Assembly (NCBI GenBank): GCA_011033025.1
Contig: WFMF01000282.1
Span: 124,001-188,000 of the forward strand
Origin: Beroe forskalii
Lineage: Eukaryota; Ctenophora; Nuda; Beroida; Beroidae
DNA: 64,000 nucleotides
Reading direction: 5' to 3'
In this document: positions 2,766 through 58,000 of the stretch, one piece after another
How the letters are laid out: every line of letters starts with the position of its first letter
Numbering within the stretch: position 1 is the stretch's first letter
Program-made: the position numbers and the translations under genes
Notes under the pieces: model-generated
What the model was told of the DNA's origin: nothing
The model's database searches: none
The model's input: the letters and a program-made list of their open reading frames with translations, nothing else

Positions 2766-4315
2766 TAGGTATGTGATGTAAAACAAAGGGGGATGACGCA
2801 CATCCAGGGTGGAGGGAAGGAGGAGTTGGGGGAGGGTAGAGGAAGGGATTGGGAGGGGTGTTTGAGGGGGAAGGATTCAAGGGGCCAGGGATGGAAAAGT
2901 AGAGAGATGGAGGGGGAGGCAAGGGATGCGGCTAGAGAGGGAAGGGGGAGTAGAGGGTTGTTTGAGGGGGAGTGATTCATGGGGCCAGGGATTGGGAAGT
3001 AGAGGGATGAGGGCAGAAGAAGGACGGGGTTAGGGGGCAGGGAAATGTGCCAGAGATGGGGGAAGGGGAGGGGAGGGTAGACGGGTGTTTTGGGGGGGGG
3101 GGAGGTATTGGGAGGGTGTGGTCAGAGGATCGTAGGACCAGCTACAAAATACCTATTAACAAAGCAGGAGAGGAGGGACACAGAAACAAAAGAGGAAATC
3201 TAACAATGAATCACGGTTCTGCAGTGCGGATTGGAGCCTGGATATGCGGACACTGTATTGGCCATCATCTCATGTGACTATATAAGTCTTGCAAAGGAAG
3301 CAGTTATATTCGGTAGTTCCGGGACTACCGCTTCCTCCAATAGGGGGTTTCTATTGGACCCTTTTAAGGGTATTACACCATGTGTTACACCAGTCATTAC
3401 ACCAGTATAATACACCATATCAGATGAAGTGCACCCTCTGTTATAGGAGGTTTCTATTGGAGAGTATCAGTGGGTATTACAGAAAGGAGCAAAGCATTCC
3501 ATCCCCTAAGGAGAGGGTAATATATTAGAGAGAATTATACAGCCAGATATTTTACCCACATCCCTTCATCGCTAACCAAATCAGCGAGCAGTAGAGTATA
3601 AATCCTTAGCTCTGATTAGCCAGAACTCGATGCCCATGACGTAGAACTTTGAAGGTCTCAACTCTCAGCTATTCCCATTTCCTATTGACCAATTGAACAT
3701 CTTTACAGAGGGGTACTAGAGGGTCCACTAAATTGGAAGGAGTAATTTTAGTTTCCAGGAAGTAGGAAAGTCACTTGTTAGCATTCTAAGTTCCCAAATA
3801 TCAGATCATATAAACATTGATCCAGCGTGCAGTGATGAGTGCATAACATAGGGATGTACCATCATTATCCCATTTAATTAGTCATGTCAGTCACGTGATT
3901 TAATACCAAGGTTACAGTTAAATTTAGAATTAGAGAGACACGAAAAAATAGATACATTGATATGATGGTCGGAGAGGGTTTGGGTAAAATTTAATGAAAG
4001 AGGTTACGGGGCACTGGTAAGGGTTAAAGATTACCGACCAATGATCTTAATTGCCCACCTTGTCAAGTCTATCTTTATTCTTCTCAAATCTCAACTTGTA
4101 TCTTTGGTACCTGAAGAAACGTTATTTAAAAGTTTATTAAGCTACTATCAAAAACTAATATATCAGATGACTAAAGACAAATATATCAGATGCACATTAA
4201 ACGGGGGGACCTTCCGAGTCCGTAACTCCCCATATTTATCAGATAAAGAATAACTAAGTCTTGATTAATATTCTTTTGGGATTAAGTCTCTACAAATCTT
4301 AAGAAAAGTGTCTAC

Positions 4316-7300
4316 CTGTCGTAGAGTTGGTCGTAGGACATGTTCCGCTGAACAGTCTCACTAGCGTCGGACATGATGCCTCCACTTTCAGACAGCTCAG
4401 ACACGTCGATCAGAGCTGGGAAATAAGGGAACTGTCAATCAGAGCTGGGAAAGGAAAGGGACTAGTGCTGGTTAATAGCTCTGGGCCAGCACCAAACAGG
4501 TCCAGGTTTGAAATGCTGCGTATTTTGGAATTTGAAGATCATTTACGCTCCTCAAATGACAACAAGAACTTAATCTAAGGAATGAAATTTGAAAGTAATA
4601 CAATCATATTACACTCATAATTATAACTCACCCGCTCCCCCCATGCCTCCACTCTGGGAATGTTCAGCGACCAGGGCCGTGTCTTTCAGGATCTCCACCT
4701 GCGACTGAAGTTGAGCTATAATCTCCCCTCGCTCACTCAGCTGCTTCTGATACTCACTCGCTAGAGCTGCACTTGACCGGCACTTGGTGAGCTCCTCCTT
4801 CACAACCTTCATCTCATCCTGGGGTTGTGAAATTTTAACTGATATTTTGGGACAAATTATTAAACTGCTCATCCTGGGTTTATGAAATTGTAACTGATAT
4901 TTTAGGACAAATTATATTAAACTGCTCTGACGCTCTGTGAGGGAGTCTCAAAACGTTTCGATGTTACAAAGATGCATCTTCTTCAGTTCTAAAATTTGAT
5001 TGCAATTATTACCTCCTTCATCCCCCCCCCCTTTAGTAGTGTTATAAAGTTTTAAACTTAAAAACACTACGAATGACACCAACGATATTGACACCAACGA
5101 TATTGGTCGATTTCTTTGAGACCAACGAGACATAATGACCTTGGTACACCATTTTACCTGGACGATATTATGCTCGGAGACTACTCCGTTGTATTGCCCG
5201 ATCACGTACTTTAATTTCTTGCGTAGTTTTAGCCTGGCCACTGCCTGAAATTATAATGAATTGATTCATTCTGAACATGCACATCATGAAATATGAAATT
5301 GTGGTATCGTTAACAACAGGGTTATCCAAAAGTCTTGGACCCTTTTACGTTTTTAACAGTTCGAAAACTGCAGCAGATATTTTGCTTCTGGAAAAAAGTT
5401 TTCAGGTTGCTATGCCTTCCATAGCAACTACACGAGTTTCATAGCAACGGCACTGAAAATCAAGGAATTTAGCACTTTTTACAAAAAAAAGGTTTGTGGA
5501 ATTGTTGATCCATTCCAGAGAAAATATTAATATATTTCAATAATGAGAAATTGTGAAATCATTCCAAAAATGAGATCACTGCTCAAGAAATAATTCCCTC
5601 GTCATTAGGTATTATACTCGTTAGAACTATCCAAAAACAAAGAGGGAGTTCGATGACTTTATTTCCCACCAGATACTTGCTCAAGGTTAAATATTTTATC
5701 TTGATACCGGAATTCAAATATTCATAGCTACACGTAAGTATGAATTTAATTCCAGCAACGCGTGGGAGGGGGCAAGATATATTTATGGGAGGGGGCGTGT
5801 ACTATTTGAATAGCGAGAATGCTAGGAATTCATAGTAATTCAATCTACACTCGTAGGTAAGTAAGGAAATGACCAGTTCCTCAACTCTTTATATACTGCT
5901 GGTCTTGCTACGAATAGGATGCCGTATCAGTTTACATATTGAGGGCCACCTGGTCCCCCTCACTATATTATTATTTCAATAAAACATGTGTGTTTTATAG
6001 TCTTAGTGTGTCTGGTACTGCAATAAACATATGTTCGCCTGGATGTGTGGAGTTGTTTCACCAGTTTATTATAACTATATTTCAGCTCTTTTCATCTTCG
6101 TTGAGGGAGCCAATTGGTTATATTCTCTACTGTACTGCATAAATTTTTTAGTTTAAAGTCCGCTTTATTTTAATGGTTCTGATGTTGGTCTTAATAGATG
6201 CTATTTCTATCTCATATTTGATAACGCCAGGGAAACGACTACCTCTAACCTTCACAAATAACTTACTATCTCATTGCTTTTCGTGGTACTGAATTATTTC
6301 AGTCGAACTACCTACATCTAGATTGTACGCAACGAATATCGAAGTTTTGTTACAATTTGCACTGAAATTTCGTTAATTTGCTCTCGTTCATTGAAAATAA
6401 ATTCGGTGATACCAAACCACACATCCAATCAGGAATTTCAACATGTCAGATGATAAAGAAGCTGAAGCGGTGGCTGTAGATGGGATGTACCCCGCCATAC
6501 CTCAAGAAGAGGCGACAGAACCCCAAACATCAGAAATACAGGAGCCAGCAGGCCAGGGGACAGAAAAACAGGAGACAGAAATCCAGGAGACAGAAAATCT
6601 GGAAGCAGAAAATCTGGAAGCAGAAAAACCGGAGACAGAACAGCTTGTACAAAACCCACCACCTCCTTACCCGCCAGCAGGCACCCAACCACCACCTCAA
6701 CCCGTCGTTATGGTGCCTCTGAACGACGGAACACTACCAATCACCATCCTCTCCCGATATCCCCAACAAGTTACCTGCCCCCACTGCCATGCTAATGTTA
6801 CTACCACAGTGACCCTGGAGAACGGATTAGGGACTTGGTTGGTGTGTTTCGCTATCTTTGTGTTTACCCTTTGTTGCTGTTGGATAGCCCTCCTGATCAA
6901 TGATTTCAAGGATGCGATTCATACCTGTCCGAATTGTAAAGCAGTCATTGGGGCACGCAAGACTATCCAATGATTTTAATAAACTTTTAGTAACTATGTA
7001 ACCATATATTCAATGATTTTAAGTATGTAACATTCAGTGATTTCCTCATTTAACGACAATTTTTAACATAATGATTGATAAGCTAATTTCAATTTTGAAT
7101 GATTTTATCAAAGCTTTAATTTTTGCCTGCAGTACAAATTTCAATATCAATAATAAATAAGTAGGTACCCACTTAATAATGTATGAATAAACTTTTGAGG
7201 ACATGATTATTCTACAAGCTGAGCAGTGATTTTATTATTTTATTAAAATATGAATAGATAGACAGAATATCCTTATTTTGAGTCAATTATTCTTATTTTG

Positions 7301-10872: not shown

Positions 10873-11545
10873 TTTAAGTATTGGATTCTTGATTCTGTGG
10901 TTCAACTTAGGACATCAAGGTGATAATTCTATAGCAGCTTCAGTACATCAAGCTAAAGTTGATCATTTTTATCAATCAGTAATAAACACAGCCATTGTGA
11001 ACAAAGCATGCAGTAGTGATAATAATATGATATACTATACAAAACATAGTATGTGAATTTTTATTTAATCAGATATTGTATTTGATCTAAAAAGAATATG
11101 TTCCGAGAAATTTCTGAACAAACTACAAACTAACTAAAGAAATTGAGAAAATTAAGATTCTTGAAAACATTTCTGATTTTAGACATCTTTTAAACTCTAT
11201 CTTAGACCACAACACAACACATATTAAATTAACTAACTGAGGGTCAAGTGTAACACTATGTGGAGATCCTGAAGAAGAAATATTTAATTTCGAAACTGTC
11301 AGTCGATTAATGGTTTACATAGTGTGTGGGTTTGATATCATTTTTGAGATTTGTGTTTCACTGCATCAATGATCAATCACTTCAAACATATCTTAGACCA
11401 GAATTGCAAACTAGAAAATCCTTGAACTCCCATTTACCAAGACAACTGCTCATGCTATAAATAATCCAATAACAGAGAAATAAGAGTCACCAGTCTTGCT
11501 ATATTCATACCTTGCTTGCTTGGATAGAAACGTTGAGGTCCAGGA
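10873..11545. other. METTL7-like upstream region with a hammerhead-like repeat
   Basis: No exon is seen. The first 200 bp should contain the METTL7-like promoter, but I see no clear core element. From 11251 the region holds the structured repeat listed separately. Confidence 0.4.
11253..11325 (+). ncRNA. Hammerhead-ribozyme-like motif, copy 1
   Basis: The core reads CTGAAGA (11269-11275), one extra A, a 5-bp stem II (11277-11281 with 11287-11291), then GAAA (11292-11295). A 3-bp stem III closes a GTC triloop (ACT...AGT, 11295-11303), and C at 11304 follows as the cleavage-site base. Stem I pairs 11065-style proximal bases 11265-11268 with 11305-11308 and distal bases 11253-11261 perfectly with 11317-11325. 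All invariant core positions of a type I hammerhead (CUGANGA, GAAA, NUH) are present. The extra A after A9 is known from one natural viroid hammerhead. Activity is untested. Confidence 0.6.
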
Positions 11546-12260: not shown

Positions 12261-12351
12261 AGTACCAGGTTTGCTCTAACCAGATCCCTAGTTTCGCAAC
12301 ACCCCTGGTTAGGGGAAGCCGGGGAAGGTCAGACAACGTCTGCACTGACAA

Positions 12352-14861
12352 GTAACACCTGGGTGTAACGCAGCGTAACATCTGGGTGTAACGCAGCGTA
12401 ACATCTGGGTGTAACGCAGCGTAACATCTGGGTGTAACGCAGCGTAACATCTGGGTGTAACACAGCGTAACACCTGGGTGTAACGCAGCTTAACACCTGT
12501 GTGTAACGCAGCGTAAAACCTGGGTGTAACGCAGCGTTACATCTGGGTGTAACGCAGCGTAACACCTGTGTGTAACGCAGCGTAACACCTGGGTGTAACG
12601 CAGCGTAACATCTGGGTGTAACGCAGCGTATTGCGTAACATCTGGGTGTAACGCAGCGTATTGCGTAACATCTGGGTGTAACGCAGCGTAACACCTGGGT
12701 GTAACGCAGAGTAACACCTGGGTGTAACGCAGCGTAACACCTAGCCTGGGTGTAACGCAGCGCGTAACACCTGGGTGTAACGCAGCGCGTAACACCTGGG
12801 TGTAACGCAGCGCGTAACACCTGGGTGTAACGCAGCGCGTAACACCTGGGTGTAACGCAGCGCGTAACACCTGGGTGTAACGCAGCGTAACATCTGGGTG
12901 TAACGCAGCGCGTAACACCTGGGTGTAACGCAGCGTAACATCTGGGTGTAACGCAGCGTAACATCTGGGTGTAACGCAGCGTAACATCTGGGTGTAACGC
13001 AGCGTAACATCTGGGTGTAACGCAGCGTAACATCTGGGTGTAACGCAGCGTAACATCTGGGTGTAACGCAGCGTAACATCTGGGTGTAACGCAGCGTAAC
13101 ATCTGGGTGTAACGCAGCGTAACATCTGGGTGTAACGCAGCGTAACATCTGGGTGTAACGCAGCGTAACATCTGGGTGTAACGCAGCGTAACATCTGGGT
13201 GTAACGCAGCGTAACATCTGGGTGTAACATCTGGGTGTAACGCAGCGTAACATCTGGGTGTAACGCAGCGTAACATCTGAGTGTAACGCAGCGTAACATC
13301 TGGGTGTAACGCAGCGTAACATCTGGGTGTAACGCAGCGTAACATCTGGGTGTAACGCAGCGTAACATCTGGGTGTAACACAGCGTAACACCTGTGTGTA
13401 ACGCAGCGTAACACCTGGGTGTAACGCAGCTTAACACCTGTGTGTAACGCAGCGTAACACCTGGGTGTAACGCAGCGTTACATCTGGGTGTAACGCAGCG
13501 TAACACCTGTGTGTAACGCAGCGTAACACCTGGGTGTAACGCAGCGTAACATCTGGGTGTAACGCAGCGTACTGCGTAACATCTGGGTGTAACGCAGCGT
13601 ATTGCGTAACATCTGGGTGTAACGCAGCGTAACACCTGGGTGTAACGCAGAGTAACACCTGGGTGTAACGCAGCGTAACACCTAGCCTGGGTGTAACGCA
13701 GCGCGTAACACCTGGGTGTAACGCAGCGTAACATCTGGGTGTAACGCAGCGCGTAACACCTGGGTGTAACGCAGCGTAACATCTGGGTGTAACGCAGCGT
13801 AACATCTGGGTGTAACGCAGCGTAACATCTGGGTGTAACGCAGCGTAACATCTGGGTGTAACGCAGCGTAACATCTGGGTGTAACGCAGCGTAACACCTG
13901 GGTGTAACGCAGCGTAACATCTGGGTGTAACGCAGCGTATTGCGTAACATCTGGGTGTAACGCAGCGTAACACCTGGGTGTAACGCAGAGTAACACCTGG
14001 GTGTAACGCAGCGTAACACCTAGCCTGGGTGTAACGCAGCGCGTAACACCTGGGTGTAACGCAGCGCGTAACACCTGGGTGTAACGCAGCGCGTAACACC
14101 TGGGTGTAACGCAGCGCGTAACACCTGGGTGTAACGCAGCGCGTAACACCTGGGTGTAACGCAGCGTAACATCTGGGTGTAACGCAGCGCGTAACACCTG
14201 GGTGTAACGCAGCGTAACATCTGGGTGTAACGCAGCGTAACATCTGGGTGTAACGCAGCGTAACATCTGGGTGTAACGCAGCGTAACATCTGGGTGTAAC
14301 GCAGCGTAACATCTGGGTGTAACGCAGCGTAACATCTGGGTGTAACGCAGCGTAACATCTGGGTGTAACATCTGGGTGTAACATCTGGGTGTAACGCAGC
14401 GTAACATCTGGGTGTAACGCAGCGTAACATCTGAGTGTAACGCAGCGTAACATCTGGGTGTAACGCAGCGTAACATCTGGGTGTAACGCAGCGTAACATC
14501 TGGGTGTAACGCAGCGTAACATCTGGGTGTAACGCAGCGTAACATCTGGGTGTTACGCGGCGTAACATCTGGGTGTAACGCAGCGTAACATCTGGGTGTA
14601 ACGCAGCGTAACATCTGGGTGTAACACAGCGTAACATCTGGGTGTTACGCGGCGTAACATCTGGGTGTTACGCAGCGTAACATCTGGGTGTTACGCAGCG
14701 TAACATCTGGGTGTTACGCAGCGTAACATCTGGGTGTAATGCAGCGTAGCATATGGGTGTAACGCCACGACATCTGGGTGTTACGCGGCGCAAGATCCAG
14801 GTATTACACAGAGTAACATCTGGGTGTTACGCGGCGTAACATCGAACATCTGGGTGTTACC
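12352..14861. repeat. 23-bp minisatellite, about 2.5 kb
   Basis: About 100 tandem copies of taacatctgggtgtaacgca-gcg, with variants carrying cacctgggtg, gcgcgtaac or attgcgtaac. The unit is not a multiple of three and one strand has no stops, so long minus-strand frames (up to 509 codons) appear; they are a composition effect, not a gene. Higher-order structure is present: a marker variant (cacctagcctggg) recurs near 12738, 13679 and 14017, and 12490-12760 repeats almost exactly 941 bp later. Confidence 0.95.
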
Positions 14862-15295: not shown

Positions 15296-16774
15296 TCACT
15301 CCACACATCTGACAGCAGCCTGCGCCGCATCCTCAAACTGATCGTGCGCATGGATATCAAGTCCTGAGTTCGCCATGAGTTCCCGGGCGGCATCCATATT
15401 GGCACCCTTTAACCTCACCACCAGGGGCAGCTCCAACTTGCTCTTCCTACAGGCGCTGATAATCCCTCCAGCGATGATCTTACAGTCCACGATCCCTCCG
15501 AATATGTTGACGAATATGGCCTTAACCGCAGGGTCCTGGGTCAGGATGTTGAAGGCCTTTTCAACCTGCTCCTCCTGGACCTTACCGCCCACGTCCAGGA
15601 AGTTGGCCGGGCTGCCCCCGTGTAGCTGGATGATGTCCATGGTGGCCATGGCCAGCCCGGCCCCGTTCACCATGCACGCGATGTTGCCGTCCATGGCGAT
15701 GTAGTTGAGGTCGTACCTCGCCGCTTCCAGCTCTCTTGGATCACTCTCGCTCGTATCCTCCATTCCGAATATCTCCTTCTGACGGAACTCCGCGTTATCG
15801 TCGAAGTTAATCTTGGCGTCGAAACACACCACCTCCCTCTCGTCCGTCAGTCCGAAGGGGTTTATCTCGACTTGAGTAGCGTCCACCCCGACAAACAGCT
15901 CGTAAAGCTTCTTTATCTCGCTCGCTGCTTCGCTCACAGCACTCCCCTCGAACTCCAGCTTCTGCGCGAGATCCAGAGCCATGTCGTCCGTTACCCCCGT
16001 GAAGATGTCCACGGGGATCTTGAAGACTCGTTCCGGGGTCTGCTCGGCTACCTCCTCAATGTCCACGCCTCCGTCCGGGGACGCCACAATCACAGGACCC
16101 CCGAACGTCCGGTCCAGCACTATCGCCAGGTACGTTTCCTTGACGATGTTCAGCGCTTTGGCGACCATCACGTTGCTTACCGGGCTGCCTTGAGCGGAAG
16201 TCTGTTTAGTAACCAGGTTATATCCGATCATTTGCTCCGTCAGACTCCCTATCTCGGCTGGGTCACGTGACAACTTCACCCCGCCCTTGAGACCGCTGCT
16301 GAACGTTCCTTTACCTCGACCTCCGGCTAGGATCTGGGCTTTGAGTACGATCTCGTCCGCTCCTCGCTCGTGCAGCATGACTTGAGCTTTCTCTGCGGCC
16401 TCGGCAGCGGAACCAGCCATGAGGAAGGGCTGGATGGTAACTCCGTACTTATCCATGAGACCTTTACTCTGGTATTCCTGGGGAGAATGGGGCATTAGAC
16501 GCGTTATTGTGGCATGAAATGCATAATTTGCTTGGAAATAATACGATCAAAAGCGATTTCAATGGGTATTGGAAGGATATTGGAGCCTGCACCATGAGAA
16601 CACATGAGAACACATGAGGGAATACCAAGTACCCACGGCATGATGCCTAAGAGGGGTCTACTTTAAGAAGCTCCCTAGTGGACGTTGTCTGGCGTATCAC
16701 AGTACCTGGAGGTTGAGGCATCTGGCGAGTCCTGGCTGGCAGCACACCACTCTCCGCAACAGCCTCGTAGCCAT
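15296..16774 (-). CDS. SUCLG2: Succinyl-CoA ligase [GDP-forming] subunit beta, mitochondrial
   Basis: Two exons. Exon 1 (16706-16774) encodes MATRLLRRVVCCQPGLARCL then NLQ, a basic, acid-free mitochondrial presequence, and ends at a gtactg donor. Exon 2 (15296-16477) follows a cattctccccag acceptor and starts EYQSKGLMDKYGV, so the family junction LNLQ-EYQSK is restored in phase. The ATG at 16495 lies in the intron and is not the start. Product 416 aa, near the usual 430. ATP-grasp features: EIVLKAQILAGGRGKG, GGVDIEEVAEQTPE, ATQVEINPF and VCFDAKINFDDNAEFRQK. The C-terminal ligase domain has NGAGLAMATMDI and GGSPANFLDVGG. VCFDAKINFDDNAEFRQ fits SUCLG2 better than SUCLA2. Role: TCA-cycle substrate-level phosphorylation with the alpha subunit. 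The left duplication border falls inside exon 2 near 15988. Confidence 0.93.
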
Positions 16775-17983: not shown

Positions 17984-23257
<5,274 letters not shown>

Positions 23258-23809
23258 TTAGTTAGATCCAGTTGAGAGGAAAGCAACAATACAGGCTGAT
23301 GTGACAGAAGAACCCAGGTAGTTTGCTCCAGCACTGAAATTCTTGAGCACATAGAAACTCAGGATAATGGTAAGGAAGAGGAAGAGGGCATTGTTATAGA
23401 AAATACTGAAATGTGTAGCTTCCAAATCAGCAACTTCAGTTTTCTTGAAGAGTACCCGATCATCTTTCTCCTTCTTCACAGCCTTCTTCTTCTCACTGGA
23501 AGCATCAGCCACCTGCTGCATAACCTCAGCAGTAACCCCAGCATGCCTTCTCTGGGCTATTTTATGTTTCAGTGAATACTTCACATTTTTGTAGGCAAGG
23601 GACATTAGGAAGGTAGAAATGAGGGTAACAATCCCAAACATGATACCATAAGTATTCAGCTCCAGCTGCTGTATCCTCCAAAAGAGCCAAATGGGAAGTG
23701 CTGAGACAAACAGAGCATTGAGGTGGAAAAGAATGGAGGTGCTGCGAGGCACCTTCCTAGAGAAATCATTGAGCAGGATTTCTTCCTCAGCAGTCAATGG
23801 AGCTGACAT
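23258..23809 (-). CDS. SSR3: Translocon-associated protein subunit gamma, copy 1
   Basis: Single 183-aa frame from ATG 23809. It follows TRAP-gamma along its length: EEEILLNDFSRKVPRSTS, FVSALPIWLFWRI, LAYKNVKYSLKHKIAQRR, KKEKDDRVLFKKTEVADLEA, FSIFYNNALFLFLTIILSFY and the terminal FLSTGSN. Four membrane segments are predicted (about 25-45, 53-73, 133-155, 163-180) with a charged cytosolic loop (75-130) rich in Lys. TRAP-gamma is the multi-pass TRAP subunit that binds Sec61 and ribosome at the ER. The gene shares strand with ARF and SUCLG2. The duplicate at 40521-41072 is identical over the coding sequence as far as I can read. A TTAACTAACTGAGGA word precedes the ATG, as in ARF copy 1. Animal SSR3 usually has introns; none is visible in the coding part here. 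Confidence 0.93.
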   Translation of the reverse strand: MSAPLTAEEEILLNDFSRKVPRSTSILFHLNALFVSALPIWLFWRIQQLELNTYGIMFGIVTLISTFLMSLAYKNVKYSLKHKIAQRRHAGVTAEVMQQVADASSEKKKAVKKEKDDRVLFKKTEVADLEATHFSIFYNNALFLFLTIILSFYVLKNFSAGANYLGSSVTSACIVAFLSTGSN

Positions 23810-24077
23810 GGTCCTCAGTTAGTTAATTATTATAAATAAACTAAATTCATGTGAATATCAGAGTATTAGGAATGAAACTCAATTAAACAAGACAGGTTAC
23901 ACAACATGCATGTATCAATGAAGTAACTTTTTCACTTGATCAATGACTTTGACCAAGAGAGACTGAATGATGAAGATGTAATAAGCAATAACACATCTAA
24001 CTGGTAAATATATTACAACTTACACAGTTGATTTCATTCAACTTCATTAGTGTCTGCTATTACTTTACTATTTAAGT

Positions 24078-25230: not shown

Positions 25231-25484
25231 GAGTGTGGTTTGATGTTAATTTAATCTTAATCACAATTGTCATATGACCAGAAAGAATTAAACTGTTCAA
25301 ATTATGGTGTAATGTGCTACTAAATGTAAACTTATTTGTTTTATTAAACTTATTTGTTTTTATTACTGTCCATGGTGGAAAAATGTGTCACTCAACCTTC
25401 CCCAGTTGAAAAGTTAAATTTTAGAATTTGAATGGTTTTCACATTTCCATATCACCATACCATCATAATCTCAGAATGTTGTGT

Positions 25485-25556
25485 CACACTTTGTGGAGTT
25501 CCTGAAGAAGAGATATTTTATCTCGAAACTGACAGTTGAATAGCGGTGCAAAGTGT
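25485..25556 (+). ncRNA. Hammerhead-ribozyme-like motif, copy 2
   Basis: Same architecture as 11253-11325. CTGAAGA (25502-25508), one extra A, a 6-bp stem II (25510-25515 with 25519-25524), GAAA (25525-25528), a 3-bp stem III around a GAC loop, then T at 25537 in the cleavage position. Proximal stem I is 25498-25501 with 25538-25541; distal stem I is 25486-25493 with 25549-25556. The following 60 bp (gtttgatttcatatttgaga...cacttcaaacata) match the flank of copy 1, so the repeat unit is larger than the motif. Confidence 0.6.
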
Positions 25557-25737
25557 ATGGGTTTGATTTCATATTTGAGAATTTTTGTGTTTCACTGAAA
25601 TGATCAATCACTTCAAACATAAATTTTAGAATGTAATTGTTTTGAATTATTATTTGATCTTTTTTTACAACTGTGGACTAGGTCAATGGAATACCACAGA
25701 TGTTAACAAACATGGACTTCAGCAACCAAATTCAATT

Positions 25738-27900: not shown

Positions 27901-27984
27901 CACCGCTGGTTTACTGCCAGTTTCGAGAATACAACATTGAAAATGATTATATTATTTCTCGTCTTCAGAAAACTCCATTTGGTG
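27901..27984 (-). ncRNA. Hammerhead-ribozyme-like motif, copy 3
   Basis: On the minus strand: CTGAAGA, one extra base (C), stem II GAGAA with TTCTC around a longer loop, GAAA, stem III ACT...AGT around GGC, then A in the cleavage position. Proximal stem I is weak (two A-T pairs); distally CACC (27981-27984) pairs with GGTG (27901-27904). More decayed than the other two copies. Confidence 0.45.
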
Positions 27985-28475
27985 ATAAGCACCTTCCTCA
28001 AATTTGATTGTATAAAGTAGTGTTGTAAAGTTTATATATTATTGTATATAAATTATATTATTGTATATAAATTATTATTGTATATAAATTAGTCTTTCAT
28101 GAGTATAATACCATGAATTTGTTCTTGGTACCAATGTCATTATCAAAAAGATTTCCTTTCCTCAGAGCCAGTCTCACTTGCCTTGATCATCCAGAAGAAT
28201 ATCTCTGATGACAATAGAAATAATATGTAAGTATGCTGAATTTGATTGCTCATGGTTAGTAAAACACCATCAAACTTCAAATCAAACTAACTTACATTGC
28301 AAGTTTTAATACTAATTTCGAGTTTACATTGAAACATTACTTCTTGAATATATACCTAAATTTCTGGAAAGAAGAAAATCAATTGATTTCTAACCTAACT
28401 TAGAGTGTTATAGACTCAATTGTTACTCAACTTTTCTCTATCTTTCAATGTAATAAATAAAAACAGGTTCTATAA

Positions 28476-32015: not shown

Positions 32016-32791
32016 TCCGTTACCCCGTGAAGATGTCCACGGGGATTTTGAAGACTCGTTCCGGGGTCTGCTCGGCTACCTCCTCAATGTCCACGCCTCC
32101 GTCCGGGGACGCCACAATCACAGGACCCCCGAACGTCCGGTCCAGCACAATCGCCAGGTACGTTTCCTTGACGATGTTCAGCGCTTTAGCAACCATCACG
32201 TTGCTAACCGGGCTACCTTGCGCAGAAGTCTGTTTAGTAACGAGGTTATACCCAATCATCTGCTCCGTCAGACTTCCTATCTCGGCTGGGTCACGTGACA
32301 ACTTCACCCCACCCTTGAGACCGGAGCTGAACGTTCCCTTACCTCGACCTCCGGCTAGGATCTGAGCTTTGAGTACGATCTCGTCCGCTCCTCGCTCGTG
32401 CAGCATGACTTGAGCTTTCTCTGCGGCCTCGGCAGCGGAGCCAGCCATGAGGAAGGGCTGGATGGTAACTCCGTACTTATCCATGAGACCTTTACTCTGG
32501 TATTCCTGGGAAGGATGGGGCATTAGACGCGTTATTGGGGCATGAAATGCATAATTTGCTTGGAAATAATACGATCAAAAGCGATTACAATTGGAACTGG
32601 AAGGATATTGGAGCCTGCACCATGAGAACACATGAGGGAATACCAAGTACCCACGGCATGATGCCTAAGGGGGTCTACTTTAGGAAGCTCCCTAGTGGAA
32701 GTTGTCTGGCGTATCACAGTACCTGGAGGTTGAGGCATCTGGCGAGTCCTGGCTGGCAACATACCACTCTTCGCAACAGCCTCGTAGCCAT
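32016..32791 (-). pseudogene. SUCLG2: Truncated SUCLG2 copy in unit 2
   Basis: Exon 1 (32723-32791, same 23-residue presequence) and the first 490 bp of exon 2 (to 32505) are intact and in frame as far as IPVDIFTG. Then the copy stops at the duplication junction and runs into LRR-intron sequence. The entire C-terminal ligase domain and part of the ATP-grasp fold are lost. The upstream region is conserved with unit 1, so it may still be transcribed. Confidence 0.85.
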
Positions 32792-40520: not shown

Positions 40521-41072
40521 TTAGTTAGATCCAGTTGAGAGGAAAGCAACAATACAGGCTGATGTGACAGAAGAACCCAGGTAGTTTGCTCCAGCACTGA
40601 AATTCTTGAGCACATAGAAACTCAGGATAATGGTAAGGAAGAGGAAGAGGGCATTGTTATAGAAAATACTGAAATGTGTAGCTTCCAAATCAGCAACTTC
40701 AGTTTTCTTGAAGAGTACCCGATCATCTTTCTCCTTCTTCACAGCCTTCTTCTTCTCACTGGAAGCATCAGCCACCTGCTGCATAACCTCAGCAGTAACC
40801 CCAGCATGCCTTCTCTGGGCTATTTTATGTTTCAGTGAATACTTCACATTTTTGTAGGCAAGGGACATTAGGAAGGTAGAAATGAGGGTAACAATCCCAA
40901 ACATGATACCATAAGTATTCAGCTCCAGCTGCTGTATCCTCCAAAAGAGCCAAATGGGAAGTGCTGAGACAAACAGAGCATTGAGGTGGAAAAGAATGGA
41001 GGTGCTGCGAGGCACCTTCCTAGAGAAATCATTGAGCAGGATTTCTTCCTCAGCAGTCAATGGAGCTGACAT
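40521..41072 (-). CDS. SSR3: Translocon-associated protein subunit gamma, copy 2
   Basis: Same 183-aa product as 23258-23809 and, by direct comparison, the same nucleotides including silent sites. The identity extends a few hundred bp downstream and to the 5' leader (taattaactaactgagg). Four membrane segments and the conserved FSIFYNNALFLF and FLSTGSN motifs are intact, so this copy should be functional. Confidence 0.92.
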   Translation of the reverse strand: MSAPLTAEEEILLNDFSRKVPRSTSILFHLNALFVSALPIWLFWRIQQLELNTYGIMFGIVTLISTFLMSLAYKNVKYSLKHKIAQRRHAGVTAEVMQQVADASSEKKKAVKKEKDDRVLFKKTEVADLEATHFSIFYNNALFLFLTIILSFYVLKNFSAGANYLGSSVTSACIVAFLSTGSN

Positions 41073-41353
41073 GGTCCTCAGTTAGTTAATTATTATAAAT
41101 AAAACTAAATTCATGTAATTATTAGAGTATTAGGAATTAGGAATGAAACTCAATCAAACAAGACAGGTAACATACATGCATGCATCAATGAAGTAACTAT
41201 TTCACTTGATCAATGACTTTGACCAAGAGAGACTCAATGATGAAGATGATTGAATTGAATAAGCAATATTAGCCAATTTTGAGGGTACTTGTAGGCGTGC
41301 AATAATAAGTAATATTGCACTCCTCACATTGGTTAATGGCAAATGGTCATGAC

Positions 41354-41787: not shown

Positions 41788-43038
41788 TTATTTTGGATTA
41801 GAGAACAAATGCCCAAGGAGGGAGTTATGGATCTTTCCATTTTCCAAACACCAGCGTAATAGGGATGATGATGCACCTGCCTTTGTTAGACTGTCAGCAA
41901 GCTGAATATCAGTAGGAATCCACACAAACACTGCTTCATTTTGATTATAGCGTTGCCTCAGTGATGCCATTGCAATCCTCAACCCTTTATCATCAATAGT
42001 ATTTGTGGTTCTGATTGCATCATAAAGTGATTTACAATCTGTAAAGCAGATTATAACCCATTTGTTCAGGTTACCACTGATTTCTTGAAGCTGTTGTGTG
42101 ATTAAATCAGCTGCATCAATAGCGTCAACTAGAGACCAGCTCTCTGCTGCTAGAGTGCTCTTACAGATTTTCTTTATTTTCCGACTTTGCCATGTAAGTG
42201 GACAACTTCTTCCAAATTTATCAACCAGAAATATAATATGCCCCCCTTGAGAGGACCCATCCAACAAATTTCCAAAAGATGCATCACTGAAGACCGCTAT
42301 ACAAGCCTCACTTAATGATATCTTGGGGAACTTGACAGATAAGGGGTTTCCTTTCAAGAATTTTATAGTTTTATTCACAAGTTTTAAATCTTTCACTGTA
42401 CCCAAGGAGTATGAGTTTGTGGCATGACATGTTCCATAACAGATGTCTGGTCTTGTCTGTGTAGACACCCATAAAAGCTGTCCGGCAGTGGATCTTAGCA
42501 GTTTTTTCTCACCTTCATTAAGTAAACTCTTGTTACTCTTTGATCTTTCTATTTCAATAGACACTGGGATGATTTGTTCCACATACCCATTTTGAGATAA
42601 ATTTGTTACAGCCATACTTTGCTTAATATCAAGTCCAGTGTATACGAAAGTTCCTTCCACCTCTGTACTCAGCTGGAATTTATTCTTCATTGTTCCAATT
42701 ACATTGGTCAGAAACCATATTGTACCAGCAAACATAAGGTCATCCACATGAATTGCAATCAACCCTTCAATAGTCTTTTCCACTCGGCAATAGAAGAAGG
42801 ATTCATCTAGTTTGGATATTTTCATACCAAGTGTTATGAGATAATTTTTTAGTGCTAAATACCATCTTCGTGGGCCATCCACCAAGCCATAGATGCATTT
42901 AAGGAGACGCCATAAATTGGTTGTTCCTGCTTCTTTAGGGGGTTTAATGTACAATTCTCTATCAATTGGCTCACCTTGTAGAAATGCTGCTTGTACATCA
43001 ATGTGTTGTATAGTCCAGTCATGAGCTTGAGTGATCAT
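41788..43038 (-). pseudogene. Copia copy 1 RT-RNase H fragment
   Basis: 416-codon frame with RT motifs (HIDVQAAFLQGE, KCIYGLVDGPRRWY, HVDDLMFAG) and RNase H motifs (VFSDASFGN, LAAESWSLVDA, TDCKSLYDAI, PTDIQLADSLTKAG). It is separated from integrase by the internal deletion, so no complete polyprotein is encoded. Confidence 0.88.
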
Positions 43039-43188
43039 AACTACTAACCGAATGGTATCTTTGCTACACGTGGGAGAGTCAGACCTGATACCCTTATCTC
43101 TTTCTTGGTAGCCCAGGGCAACTAGCCTAGCCTTAGGCTTCCCAGTCTTGATTTGAGAGCTCGTTTAATCTTGGAACTACTTTCAGCA

Positions 43189-46100
43189 TTAACCAAACTC
43201 CTCTCGAGCTTTCCTCATAGCACATAGGTTATCCTCTAGAGTCTTTCCTACCACTGTTTCTTCCATAGCTGGCAGCAAATCATCAATTACACTGGGGAGT
43301 GTTGGATTTCTCCCAAAGACTAGCTGGTGAGGAGAATAACCACCTGTCATTTGCAGGGTATTTTTGGCACTCAGTGCCCAAGACAGTGCAACATTCCATG
43401 AACAGCCTGTTTCTTCCTTTGTTTTTACCATCATTCTAGTCAGCATTTGATGGTGACGCCAACCATTCCATTACTGAATGGTGATTCTGCTGCTGATTGC
43501 TGTAGTTCCACATTGAACTGTTCACATTATCTCTACATACTCTGAGTTTGCAAAACTCACCTCCATTATCAGCCATAAAACGTCTTGGTGTCCCAAATAG
43601 AGCAATCCAATTAGTACAAATTGCATCAACAATTGTACCTTTCTTCTTATTTGGAACTATTTTACCAGCTGATAGTCTTGTGACACAGTCAATCAAATGC
43701 AGGAATGTCACTGTGTGTACATCTATCGTTTTCAAGTCCATAGCTACACAATCATTGAAGTCAATTCCTCTTGGTAGTCCCACCACTGGCCTACTCTTTG
43801 GCTTAGCATAGCGCTGGCAAACTTCACACTCTTCACAAACTTTGTCTATTGCTTCCATGAAGTCTTTGTTTACTATCCCTGCATTCTTCATCAGAGATTT
43901 CAGTTTACTTGCTCCAGCATGCGCAAACTGTCTATGGAGCTTCAGGGCCTTCAACCCCATTTCTTTTTTATTTTGCCCCAAATTTTCTTGATCTGTTACC
44001 TTAAGCACAATTTCTGAGCCACTCTCAGAGTCACTGGTAAGTCTCTTCTTATTGCAAATTGGGATACAGTAATGGCCTGAAGAGCATTCTACCAACTTGA
44101 CATGGTGGCCTTTAAACTCCATTGTGTCCTTGGTAAAATCAATAATTGCTCCAACTTTTTTGAGGGATGGCTTGCTAAGAAGAAGAGGAATGTCACAATT
44201 CACAACATTTGCATCGATAAGGATCTTGTTCTTTCCAATCCTCCCTGGAATTTTAAGTTTCTGAGAGGAAATGACTTGTTTCCCATCCCCAAATTTGAAT
44301 GGGATGGAACATTGACACCGTGAAGATTCTAACAGGTTCCTTTCATCATGTTCCAGTGTTTGTATATACTCTTTTAGCCAATTTTCTCCAACAACTGTTC
44401 TTGTGCAGCCAGAATCAATAACTGCACACGATAAAGTTTCGAACACAAGAGAACTTGCTTTTGTTTCATGATCTTTTGTTTCTTCTTGAATAAACGATGT
44501 TTCTTCACAGACCAAAGTTATGTATGCTTCCACTGGTGATCCACTAGGCTCGCCCCCTGACTCACTTACCAAGTACTGAGAGTTTTGAGGACAATCACGA
44601 ATAAAATGATTCTTGTCACCACAGCCATAACAAACGTTATTATCACTATTTTTTCTTGCCCTTGCACCTCGTCCTCTAACAACATATGGTGCTGTATTCC
44701 CTCTGGCTCTGTTACCTCGTTCATTTTTCCATGGCCCGAAAGCATAATTGGCCCCTCTCTTTCTTTTAATAATAATAATAATAATGTTTTGGCAGCTTAG
44801 CCAACTCAAATCTTACATGAAAACTCTAAATCTACCCCAATTCCAAATCATACTGTAGATTGTTATTCAGTTTGGTGATTAACAAACAAATCAGTGGACC
44901 TCTCAAACTTCTATTCAGAGTCTGAGTTCGAACTGACTAATGTCAACGATGCGACGACCTCGTCCAAATGAACCATTGCTAACAACCTCACCCTTACCGA
45001 ATGACCCATTTAATAGATGGTTCGTTTTTTGATCTTTTCCTTCAATTTTCGACGAGTTCTGCTCTTGCTTTCCGTTCAGCAAATGTCCGATCAGGTGCGA
45101 TGTAAACTTTGGAGTACTCTTCAGAGCGTTTCAGATGCTTCGATCTTTCTAGCACCTTGGTCGCAATGAACTCACTCTGGAACTGTACTCGTAGTGTACA
45201 AGTTGATATGTCTTGTCCTATTTCGTCATCATGATGGAAATCGTTCGATTTCCTCAATAGTTCCACATAATTAGGTTTTATGGAAAACTCTAATCTATTC
45301 TCCATTTGTTTTAGTACACCGTTAAGTTCACTTTTGTAGTCGAAGATATCATTCTCGAGATCAACGTGAATTCCTCGTATACCATAGAATACGAGGTTAC
45401 TTCTTCTGTTGGACGCTTTCATCTCGGAAACCATTTGCTTTGCCAATTTTTCGGGTTGATTGTTCACTCTGTTGTTAGTTTCTGCTGACTTTTGTAGTAT
45501 ATCGGCATATGTTGAAACCTTTTCAGCCTCTTCATACACTTTTTTCTGCCTGATTCTCAATGTTTGTCTTCAGTTCCGATAATTTCTTTCCATTTTCTTT
45601 GACTTCTTCCAGGATGCTGTTCATCATTGTAGTTTGGGAGGACATTCCTTCTTCAATGCTTGAGTTCATTGTATCAATTTGACGTCTTTCCATTTTCATG
45701 TTTTCTGTTTCTTTCTTGTGGTTCTTGAGATATTTCTGGGCCTCATAAAGGCAGGAGAAAAGATCAAATGTCAACTCTGACATGGGCCCTTTGTTGAACT
45801 TTTTTTTCAATATCTTTCGGTTTTAATCCGTCATTTCCTCCAAGCGTGAAAATCATGGAACAAAGCTTTTCCATGCGTACCATCAGGGAATCCAGTTTAT
45901 TCGTCATAGTTGTTCACAAGTCGCACAAACCACAAGGTGGTAGGTGGAGAGGTGGTGTCGCCTTACTGGTACTGTTAAAAGTCGGAGAGCGAAATTCGAA
46001 ACAAACGATAAGTAGAAATAAGAGAAGTCAATAATAACCTTTCTGGTGGTGTGAAGTAAAATTACACTCCTCAGGTTCTGTCTTGATGTTAAAATCACCA

Positions 46101-46714
46101 TCTGTACAAACCAATTCATTTTTACCCCCTAGAGGCTGCTGTGAGAATATTTTCATGATTGTATTACTCATATCATCATATGATAGACTCTTAACTGTTG
46201 CCAAAGCAAGGTCAACCTTCTCTGCAGGCATGTTTGCACTATTCAAAAGCCTATATGCTAGCACAACCTCTGGCAAAATTATCTTGTACTTTTTTAGGTC
46301 ATCATATAGCTTCTCAAATTCAGATATATAGCCTTGCAATGACAGTCCATCAGGTCTCTGATATTTTTCGAATTTGCAATATGCCTTATATGCTGAATGA
46401 GATGAGTCTTCTTTGTATAACTTATCTAGTCTTTCAATGATCTTTTCTAACCCATCATCTTTGGTCAGAATTTCTTTGCCTAGTGATCTCACATGATTCT
46501 TTACCTTTCCCTCTTTCAGTTCTAGCAACAATGCTGTTGCCCTACGACTTTTAGGCAATGAAGTAAATTCCTTCCATAAGTCAATGTCAAGCCTCCAGTC
46601 TTCGTAACATTGCCCCTCTTTATAAGCTGGTGGAGCCTTGTAGTTGTACCCTGAAGTTCTCTCATGTCCACTACTTCCTGAGCTTGAATTGCTACTTTCT
46701 CGTTCTCCTGTCAT
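43189..46714 (-). pseudogene. Copia copy 1 gag-protease-integrase, interrupted
   Basis: Gag starts at 46714 (MTGERESSNSSSG; YEDWRLDIDLWKEF) and is cut near 46034. It resumes at about 44767 with the CCHC knuckle CYGCGDKNHFIRDC, protease AVIDSGCTRTVVG and the integrase zinc region (LHRQFAHAG, CEECEVCQRY). Integrase then breaks near 43440-43560 through single-base changes in the NGGEF region. The protease-integrase border reads through in one frame here (QNKKEMGLKALK). Confidence 0.88.
44768..46033 (-). mobile_element. ORF1-only LINE derivative inserted in copia gag
   Basis: About 1.27 kb absent from copia copy 2. On the minus strand it starts with a short leader and ATG near 45907. It encodes a coiled coil (ENMKMERRQIDTMNSSIEEG) then an L1-ORF1p-like RNA-binding segment (RSNLVFYGIRGIH, STCTLRVQFQSEFIATKVLE, RKARAELVEN), and ends in a UTR and an (ATT)n tail (44768-44783). 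No ORF2/RT follows. ORF1 is split over three frames, with one break in an A8 run near 45805 and another near 45550. Target duplication is hidden in taa repeats. Confidence 0.7.
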
Positions 46715-46747
46715 GAGTATCTGGTAGATCTATTTTTTCTGCTACCA

Positions 46748-55000: not shown

Positions 55001-58000
55001 CTTGCTTTTCCTCTAAGTTGATTAATGATCTCCCATGTTTTCTTGATGTCACCAGAGCATTGTGAAATTTTGTTTTTGTAATACCTGGCTTTTTGGTTTT
55101 TATTATTTTCTTAAGGTTATAACGATATTTACTAAATTTCTCATAAAGTTGTGGGTCACCAGAGGTAGAGTTGTTAGATTTTGTTCGAACCCAATCACTA
55201 TATAAGTCGTTTTTATGCTCAATGGCATCAATAATGCCATCTGTTATCCATGGGTTGTTTATTGGATTCCGTTTAGAATATTTTGGTTTTTTTAATTTAC
55301 GCGTTGTAAGTTTGCGCGCGCACTGTATTTACAGGCGAACCCGCGATTTGAAAAATTCATAACTTCGGCTAGGAACAATATTTTTTCATGGGGTAAAAAC
55401 CTACTTGTAGCTGGCGTTCTCCTCTATCAGAAACAACAAAAACCCGAAAACCGACCTCGTGAAAAGATAGGAAGCAATGAGACGAGCGATATACTAATAA
55501 AGTGATAGAAGTAGATATCTAAAACAAGGCTCCACAGCTATCTATATCATTACAAGTCATCCTGGAAATATATTAGTAAATGTACTATAAAAATAACATC
55601 TTTATTATACCTGAAATATTCAAAATACAATATCATCAATTATTGATATTCACAATCTCCCCTTCATTTCTCTTATCAAAGATTAAAAATAATATGAATC
55701 TCCAATCCAATCAAGCAATAAAAGAATTGTGACCAATTTGAGAATTTGATATCTATTTAATTCTTTTAAAAACGAAATTCAAGAATATTTATGAATATAA
55801 AAATTTCATTCCCTTAATAACGATCTTTCCTTATCTTGCCAATAAATATAAAAGATTATAAATAACAATGAATTTATTAAGAAATGATTTCCCATTGGTG
55901 TCCTTATTTTGGATTTGAGAACAAATGCCCAAGTAGGGAGTTATGGATCTTTCCATTTTCCAAACACCAGCGTAATAGGGATGATGATGCACCTGCCTTT
56001 GTTAGGCTGTCAGCAAGCTGAATATCAGTAGGAATCCACACAAAAACTGCTTCATTTTGATTATAGCGTTGCCTCAGTGATGCCATTGCAATCCTCAACC
56101 CTTTATCATCAATAGTATTTGTGGTTCTGATTGCATCATAAAGTGATTTACAATCTGTAAAGCATATTATAACCCATTTGTTCAGGTTACCACTGATTTC
56201 TTGAAGCTGTTGTGTGATTAAATCAGCTGCATCAATAGCGTCAACTAGAGACCAGCTCTCTGCTGCTAGAGTGCTCTTACAGATTTTCTTTATTTTCCGA
56301 CTTTGCCATGTTAGTGGACAACTTCTTCCAAATTTATCAACCAGAAATATAATATGCCCCCCTTGAGAGGATCCATCCAACAGATTTCCAAAAGATGCAT
56401 CACTGAAGACCGCTATACAAGCCTCACTTAATGATATCTTGGGGAACTTGACAGATAAGGGGTTTCCTTTCAAGAATTTTATAGTTTTATTCACAAGTTT
56501 TAAATCTTTCACTGTACCCAAGGAGTATGAGTTTGTGGCATGACATGTTCCATAACAGATGTCTGGTCTTGTCTGTGTAGACACCCATAAAAGCTGTCCA
56601 GCAGTGGATCTTAGCAGTTTTTTCTCACATTCATTAAGTAAACTCTTGTTACTCTTTGATCTTTCTATTTCAATAGACACTGGGATGATTTGTTCCACAT
56701 ACCCATTTTGAGATAAATTTGTTACAGCCATACTTTGCTTAATATCAAGTCCAGTGTATACGAAAGTTCCTTCCACCTCTGTACTCAGCTGGAATTTATT
56801 CTTCATTGTTCCAATTACATTGGTCAGAAACCATATTGTACCAGCAAACATAAGGTCATCCACATGAATTGCAATCAACCCTTCAATAGTCTTTTCCACT
56901 CGGCAATAGAAGAAGGATTCATCTAGTTTGGATATTTTCATACCAAGTGTTATGAGATAATTTTTTAGTGCTAAATACCATCTTCGTGGGCCATCCACCA
57001 AGCCATAGATGCATTTGAGGAGACGCCATAAATTGGTTGTTCCTGCTTCTTTAGGGGGTTTAATGTACAATTCTCTATCAATTGGCTCACCTTGTAGAAA
57101 TGCTGCTTGTACATCAATGTGTTGTATAGTCCAGTCATGAGCTTGAGTAATCATAACTACTAAACGAATGGTATCTTTGCTACACGTGGGAGAGTCAGAC
57201 CTGATACCCTTATCTCTTTCTTGGTAGCCCAGGGCAACTAGCCTAGCCTTAGGCTTCCCAGTCTTGGCACTCTTTGTAACAACCCACCTTACTCCTATCG
57301 TGGATTGTCCTTCATCCAACACTTCTTTGTACACATGATTCTTTTCAAACTTTTCTAGTTCAGTAACTTTTGCATCAACTACCTCTTGATCAAACATGTT
57401 CACACTTGTGAATAATATCTCTTCTTCTCTATCCTGAGCTAGGTCATCTTCATGCCATTCTTCAACAAATTCTGGCCAATCTATACAGTCTATGTTTTCA
57501 TGACCCTCTAACTGGATATTCAAGCAATTTTTGTATTTCCCTTTTGCCTTTCCAGCACGACTATGTATGTATGCTTTCTCCCAAGTCTCTTCTTGGCCCT
57601 GCTCAGGATATTTCATTTTGAAGATAACATGAGACTTAACTTTTGGCAGCTGACTCTTTCTCTCACCAATTTTGGCCCCTTCTCTGTTTTCTGGTTCAAC
57701 ATCATCTTGAACTGTTGGTGATTCCACTACTGCAGACCTTTCTACAGTACTCTCTTCTTCAACTTCTTTATCCATATCAAAGCTCTCCCCATATACTGGT
57801 GTACTTTCTAGTTGGCATTCTTCTGGAGCTGTGTTTCTCTTGGCATTTTCAGCACAACTTGTAGATGGGGTTTTCCTTGTAATGTGACATGGATGTACCT
57901 TTACAATCTGATATCCATGCTTCACTGTAAAACATTGTCCATCTTTGCCGATTACAACACCTGGCCCATGCCATCTATCCGAATTATTTCTCTTGTAGAG

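Follow-up and report, generated by a model that had tools for sequence, protein, structure and literature searches.

The window, here the whole stretch of 64,000 nucleotides that was analysed, carries at 11253–11325 a motif that is, by its sequence, a minimal type I hammerhead (HHR) such as those of Penelope-like elements (PLEs). It is part of a short element with target-site duplications, and two further HHR elements lie in the same window (Table 1). Direct reading of the motif agrees with the initial annotation on every element and position named there: the hammerhead core is complete, every named pair being standard and one of them G–U, and a single extra A follows A9 (at 11276). Such an extra A is known from the hammerhead of chrysanthemum chlorotic mottle viroid.

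Table 1. HHR elements of the window and their parts, in window positions
Feature	Position	Strand	Evidence
Left target-site duplication TATCTTAGACCA, 12 bp	11198–11209	+	Own-versus-cross control
Probable retrocopy element, 179 bp, bounded by the duplication	11210–11388	+	Copies elsewhere share it
Putative spliced-leader exon SL-A, truncated by 11 nt at the 5' end, ends TGAG, 32 nt	11210–11241	+	C691 tandem array
Sequence 3' of the putative trans-splice junction; the PLE reads CTCAG/AATGTTGTGTT (bar at junction)	11242–11252	+	
Distal stem I, 5' strand, 9 bp with 11317–11325	11253–11261	+	Sequence, strand-swap test, fold energies
Proximal stem I, 5' strand, 4 bp with 11305–11308	11265–11268	+	Alignment, fold energies
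Core CUGAAGA (11269–11275) and extra A (11276)	11269–11276	+	Sequence, descriptor
Stem II, 5 bp GAAAU/AUUUC (11277–11281 with 11287–11291), loop AUUUA	11277–11291	+	Alignment, folding
GAAA (11292–11295), near-palindromic helix III ACUGUCAGU, predicted cleavage base C17 = 11304	11292–11304	+	
3' strands of proximal and distal stem I	11305–11325	+	Strand-swap test, fold energies
PLE reading frame, nt 1–20 (start codon ATG at 11369); 3' end shared by the family, the probable start of reverse transcription	11369–11388	+	
Right target-site duplication TATCTTAGACCA	11389–11400	+	
Second HHR element, S2, C3 at 25502, acceptor CTCAG/AATG unspliced	25428–25619	+	Descriptor, covariance model
13-bp duplication TAAATTTTAGAAT of the S2 element	25415–25427 and 25620–25632	+	
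Third HHR element, S6, model match 27904–27976 (38 bits), C3 at 27968	27904–28033	-	
SL-B head of the S6 HHR element	28033–27997	-	

Several other repeats and frames are found in the window. A succinyl-CoA ligase beta-like frame occurs in two copies (15296–16546 and 32020–32574, minus), the second being shorter with 184 of 416 aa. Another frame, which we take to be TRAP-gamma-like, is present in two identical copies (23258–23818 and 40521–41081, minus). In both pairs the members are separated by about 17 kb, which resembles a tandem duplication. The region 12284–14700 is a satellite with units of about 23–25 bp (TAACACCTGGGTGTAACGCAGCG), over which long frames are open. Two copies of an LTR-retrotransposon-like coding region, presumably of the Copia type, occupy 41788–46729 and 55904–60365 (minus)—one is split, and one has frames of 990 aa and 511 aa. 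A MITE-like inverted-repeat unit lies at 20800–21010 on the minus strand; inside it, a CTGAAGATGATG...ACATCGAAAC piece that lacks helix III is joined to an SL-B-like stretch. A piece resembling this insert is also present at 4850–5060 on the minus strand.

The motif features the CUGANGA, GAAA, and U–H core of a type I hammerhead in a three-way junction with an open stem I. Three helices had been proposed for it. Their complementary strands are all present, and helix III would consist of the pairs A–U, C–G, and U–A between 11295–11297 and 11301–11303, with a GUC triloop between them; however, this helix does not hold in the fold prediction of the monomer. The monomer fold has −7.2 kcal/mol with helix III and −7.4 without it, the mean pair probability of helix III is 0.0, and the predicted free-energy minimum (−18.3) is a misfolded form with the core bases paired otherwise. 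The vestigial helix III could form between two molecules: the predicted duplex of ACUGUCAGU with itself has −8.3 kcal/mol and that with ACUGACAGU −12.3 kcal/mol. The middle base of ACUGUCAGU is A in 17, U in 16, and G in four of the 37 distinct places of subfamily S1. A helix III that is absent or vestigial in the monomer and predicted to be formable between two copies is the state of minimal PLE hammerheads. Since helix III adds no stability in the monomer, the predicted ribozyme activity is probably dimeric or protein-assisted.

The Rfam scan that had been suggested gave no hammerhead match for the window and the motif (gathering threshold and E up to 10), and there was likewise none for 20 relatives (E up to 1) or for a second stretch of the window (E up to 5). 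This absence is one half of the refuting condition given in the initial annotation and the one point in favor of a chance resemblance to a hammerhead, and it is judged to be outweighed by the covariation across subfamilies described below. In addition, a descriptor modelled on the motif (core, stem II of at least 4 bp, helix III, and proximal stem I; both strands) has two hits in the window, at 11269 and at 25502, and none in 100 Markov-1 shuffled windows, which further disfavors chance—an explanation that is hardly credible. A covariance model built from nine HHRs with the distal stem I left out matches the window at E <0.001 at 11262, at 25495, at 27904–27976 (minus), and, more weakly with 22 bits, at 20879–20924 (minus).

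Seven subfamily examples were compared. The sequences of the distal stem I differ among them, and the core is constant. Stem II has a length of 5 bp in S1 and 13 bp in S4, an extra nucleotide (A, U, or C) follows A9 in all seven, and in S7 the base of stem II has a U–U mismatch or, read otherwise, two extra U. Pairing in the distal stem I is stronger between cognate strands than after swapping (2 of 5040 permutations for the seven subfamilies, three of which are close relatives, and 1 of 120 permutations in each of two sets of five subfamilies). For single subfamilies, the number of equally good shuffles among 2000 is 0 for S1 and 18 for S4, which are clearly better than the shuffles; 96 for S2, 91 for S3, and 167 for S7, which are borderline; and 389 for S5 and 263 for S6, which are no better. 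In an alignment of nine rows, 97.2% of the cells pair, a value reached by none of 500 shuffles; only two pairs change on both sides in this alignment, and 75 of the 500 shuffles also reach two.

The PLE lineages of S1 and S2 allow for a comparison over a longer distance. Their frames show a pS of about 0.76, which is saturated, and a pN of 0.115 (412 codons, L068). The HHR is identical in 61 of 73 columns, compared with 46 of 64 in the stretch from the HHR to the tail and 122 of 261 in the pseudo-LTR further upstream. All 12 HHR differences fit the fold: three pairs are changed on both sides, one U–A is changed to U–G, and five columns are unpaired. By these comparisons, selection acts on the HHR structure between subfamilies. 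None is seen inside the young S1 family: over 37 distinct places, 34 of them with an intact core, the core has 0.0074 changes per site, compared with 0.0075 at other sites.

The fold could also be a by-product of other conservation—of the translation start region, of RNA binding by the PLE protein, or of a promoter—without any catalysis. The lacking helix III of the monomer prediction and the conserved stretch between HHR and tail are consistent with this, as is the count of copies that begin at the cleavage site, which shows no enrichment (one exact match, compared with none at the neighbouring base on each side). We regard a fold without catalysis as quite unlikely, given that CUGANGA, GAAA, and U–H are kept in the seven subfamily examples while the stems are replaced by compensated sequences. 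PLE HHRs of this kind are, moreover, reported to cleave; work by Lunse in 2017 is said to have shown this for dimers. Cleavage with protein has been reported as well (PMC11167929).

The suggested search for further copies found relatives dispersed in the genome, which has 216 Mb and, by its gene content, is presumably that of an animal: the DNA of the window copy gave at least 43 matches at E ≤0.001 (40 scored of 995 first-look candidates). Searches with three related subfamilies gave at least 42, at least 42, and at least 41 matches (644, 211, and 85 candidates). At one place (L015 1097–1650, contig C303), three pieces of HHR elements follow one another; two of them contain an HHR, and the third is partial and starts close to the HHR cleavage site.

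The link with PLEs suspected in the initial annotation is borne out by a PLE on contig C253, which carries the same HHR in both of its pseudo-LTRs and an open frame of 1050 aa. The element (L032) features direct repeats of 258 nt, which are 99% identical, lie 3507 bp apart, and contain one HHR each. The frame extends over 3775–6927 of L032 with an ATG at 3796. It matches a reverse-transcriptase model at E 1.7e-4, and its C-terminus is GIY-YIG-like, staying below the Pfam cut-off and reaching E 2e-12 in a pairwise comparison with another genomic GIY-YIG frame. Pfam yielded no reverse transcriptase in this frame, and a search of solved structures yielded a single chance match (E 1.3). The C253 element combines reverse transcriptase and GIY-YIG in one frame flanked by pseudo-LTRs, which is the organization of a PLE. 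The HHR of L032 has the tandem pseudo-LTR location, and that of the window sits in a lone dispersed copy. Among 14 S2 loci other than that of the window, seven carry the HHR 3' of a frame that is 69–83% identical to the C253 frame.

A search for GIY-YIG also led to a second PLE-like family with this domain near the N-terminus, which we take to be Naiad-like; 19 of its 20 loci gave no HHR match by the covariance model. The twentieth locus (L050) has its HHR in a separate upstream repeat, and three stretches 3' of frames with the N-terminal GIY-YIG gave no HHR match. Long open frames of this second family are present at L044, L047, L048, L052, and L055, each without an HHR by the covariance model.

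A tandem array on contig C168 (L031 4138–5793) consists of 4.1 units over 1656 bp. The units have a length of 405 bp and match PLE 3640–4048. The array is bracketed by a single 10-bp target duplication TTGTTGATAT, and its 3' end is the standard end of the family. The array includes nt 1–253 of the PLE frame; in the PLE of Anolis, the first 172 nt of the frame were found to be needed (PMC11167929). The array units are, as far as their sequence tells, deletion derivatives of the PLE with a minimal HHR. Tandem HHR repeats of a few hundred base pairs together with duplications, as in metazoan retrozymes, are found in the C168 array and not in the window copy, which is a monomer. The array may have arisen by insertion of multimeric cDNA made from circular or tandem RNA. 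Unequal crossing-over of an inserted dimer is a possible alternative that we consider the lesser one: the units are about 98–99.8% alike and tandem repeats can expand, and against it stand the single duplication and the standard 3' end—both of which would survive a later expansion too.

The 5' heads of the short copies point to spliced leaders. Head A followed by GT has 32 exact matches in the genome, ten of which lie in one array on contig C691, and the reversed control has 0. The C691 array consists mostly of tandem units of about 499 bp (seven of nine spacings are 496–501 bp) that read ...CTAACTGAG/GTAAGATT..., where the bar is the boundary between exon and GTAAG donor. Outside this array, none of the four sampled places with head A and GT (L100–L103) is a leader gene. 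These four places carry the SL-A leader joined to another retrocopy family (e.g., GTAACTCAAT..GCACTGATGATGATGATTTGAAAGTACTTTGC), which suggests that further retroelements undergo trans-splicing too. Head B followed by GGTA has 108 matches, partly clustered, with a control of 0, and all seven sampled places are gene-like. The SL-A and SL-B genes share the GTAAG donor, a 3' hairpin in which one pair is compensated, and a U-rich TCTTTTGGTTTG-like site, which we take to be a likely Sm site. No Rfam family matches eight leader-gene loci, and parts of both leader exons have no match in literature text. The C691 array unit looks like a spliced-leader RNA gene and the head of the window copy like its exon.

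The position of the leader relative to the ribozyme was determined for 80 HHR places, allowing up to five mismatches in the 19 leader positions and leaving out seven loci that repeat other places; the S6 copy of the window, which is not among the 80, was placed separately. A leader lies 25–29 nt from C3 in 52 places (27 nt in 29 of them and 28 nt in 18), and the unspliced acceptor lies at exactly 27 nt from C3 in 24. Neither is present in four: L036 has a truncated-looking SL-B, L050 runs off the edge of its locus, and L027 and L031 (8958) are chance-like. An earlier, looser descriptor of this distance classified 99 of 160 rows as having no leader, many via the leader's own CTGAGAA, and was replaced by the stricter one. 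Exact junction-spanning 32-mers occur genome-wide 42 times in the leader type and 14 times in the unspliced type, four of the latter in the C168 array; the window copy, with other letters at its junction, is in neither count. The S1 copies carry SL-A in 14 cases and SL-B in 11, and the S4 places carry SL-A in two and SL-B in 18. The heads correspond to the leader exon up to its donor and are joined at the acceptor AG of the parent, as expected of a spliced-leader retrocopy. With leader exons joined at the PLE acceptor and two leaders on several HHR subfamilies, the short copies look like run-off products of reverse transcription that started internally on trans-spliced PLE mRNA.

The 3' ends of the copies are uniform as well. 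In all 30 S1 loci, the end is ATGATCAATCACTTCAAACA or a near form of it (by a tolerant pattern), corresponding to nt 1–20 of the frame. In the window copy, this end lies 84 nt after the cleavage site, with 64 nt between the cut and the start codon. We infer that the common end at about frame position +20 is the start of reverse transcription. Duplications of at least 7 nt flank 11 of the 22 elements with both ends recognised, compared with 5 of 462 cross pairs; the other 11 have no duplication of 7 nt. In the PLE of Anolis, reverse transcription starts 111–118 nt into the frame, the HHR cut lies 26 nt in, and HHR mutants still insert (PMC11167929). Cleavage appears to be unneeded for making the leader-joined copies, since they keep an uncut ribozyme and starts at the cut site are not enriched. 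The role of the predicted cleavage is more likely the resolution of multimers.

Taken together, the motif is probably the minimal type I hammerhead of a PLE pseudo-LTR, and the window copy probably arose from a trans-spliced PLE transcript as a short retrocopy. An independent SINE family with few master loci, having a 5' head derived from spliced-leader RNA and a 3' end matching the PLE, would share the common 5' end, the small size, the target duplications, and the PLE-matching 3' end. This origin is unlikely: the head stops at the leader donor, with none of the leader-gene intron behind it, S1 and S4 places each carry both leaders, and L002, L003, L009, L015, L018, L021, and L024 are 100% identical to the PLE-derived array unit over 141–142 nt—as expected for direct retrocopies in the case of these seven leader-joined S1 copies.

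For the retrocopy origin, a series of steps is proposed. Tandem PLE units would be transcribed together, and the host would attach the spliced leader at the AG acceptor, which lies 27 nt before the ribozyme core. The product would be a capped monomer mRNA in the order leader, ribozyme, and reading frame, of which the footprints are seen in the DNA. The PLE protein would then start reverse transcription inside the frame at about +20, where the common 3' end is observed. On the trans-spliced monomer, the enzyme would soon run off the 5' end and leave a leader-starting copy of about 180–200 bp, often with target duplications of 7–13 bp. On tandem or circular RNA, it would continue into further units, which would give full PLEs with two pseudo-LTRs or multimers such as the C168 array. 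The ribozyme would most likely cut only on multimeric RNA, with two copies paired through ACUGUCAGU with ACUGUCAGU or ACUGACAGU, or with the help of protein; its cuts would resolve multimers and supply circles or monomers. The RNA behind the leader-joined retrocopies would have been left uncut by the ribozyme.

A broader proposal, put forward tentatively at somewhat less than an even chance, is that host trans-splicing and a dimer-dependent hammerhead, with its cut 63 nt downstream of the junction, act at the same spot of the PLE and jointly decide the fate of its RNA. Trans-spliced monomers would be translated and would leave only short, dead, leader-starting retrocopies; unspliced tandem or circular RNA, cut or circularised by paired ribozymes, would be the sole template for complete elements and arrays. 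If this is true, the short leader-joined copies are a genomic record of the internal initiation of PLE reverse transcription in vivo.

Animal spliced-leader trans-splicing features leader RNA genes in tandem, a GTAAG donor, and a 3' hairpin, and all three are alike here. A limited search of literature, available in part, on spliced leaders together with Penelope, SINEs, and retrotransposition found no trans-spliced PLE retrocopies. The HHR is of a known kind, and the trans-spliced origin of the copies appears to be new. The spliced leader marks the complete 5' end of an RNA template, so that template length, start site, and prior cutting become readable from DNA; the leader-joined copies hint in this way at how PLEs process and copy their RNA.

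The minimal type I hammerheads of PLEs are described, in the available parts of two reviews, with a missing or vestigial helix III, a pseudo-LTR location, and a dimer logic (PMC7761336, PMC6466107). The window motif shares all three with the minimal PLE hammerheads of Cervera and de la Pena (2014) and Lunse, Weinberg and Breaker (2017). Compared with these, as portrayed in the available review descriptions, it has the extra nucleotide after A9 (seven of seven examples) and lies just 3' of a putative trans-splice acceptor. The role of minimal hammerheads in PLEs is called unknown in the accessible portion of one review (PMC7761336). The Poseidon PLE of Anolis carolinensis (PAc) likewise carries an HHR at the junction of pseudo-LTR and frame and has an internal start of reverse transcription that gives a tail (PMC11167929). 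The distance from the cut to the start of reverse transcription is 85–92 nt in PAc and 84 nt here. In PAc the start codon is inside the HHR, whereas here 64 nt separate it from the cut, and the main text on PAc makes no mention of a spliced leader, in contrast to the leader-joined copies found here (PMC11167929).

Metazoan retrozymes are described, in the part of the source available, as non-autonomous type I HHR elements with tandem repeats of 150–450 bp and duplications of >4 bp, and a PLE is proposed as their mobilising partner, being only a candidate (PMC7229834). In the same part, no PLE origin is given for the characterised retrozymes, and minimal PLE-like HHRs are counted separately, whereas the 405-bp units found here are, by their sequence match, PLE-derived (PMC7229834). 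The present genome brings together a PLE, its 405-bp HHR-array deletion derivative, and dozens of short copies that share an internal 3' end of the PLE. The PLE, the derived array, and the shared end tie the HHR arrays to the PLE by sequence and not by coexistence alone.
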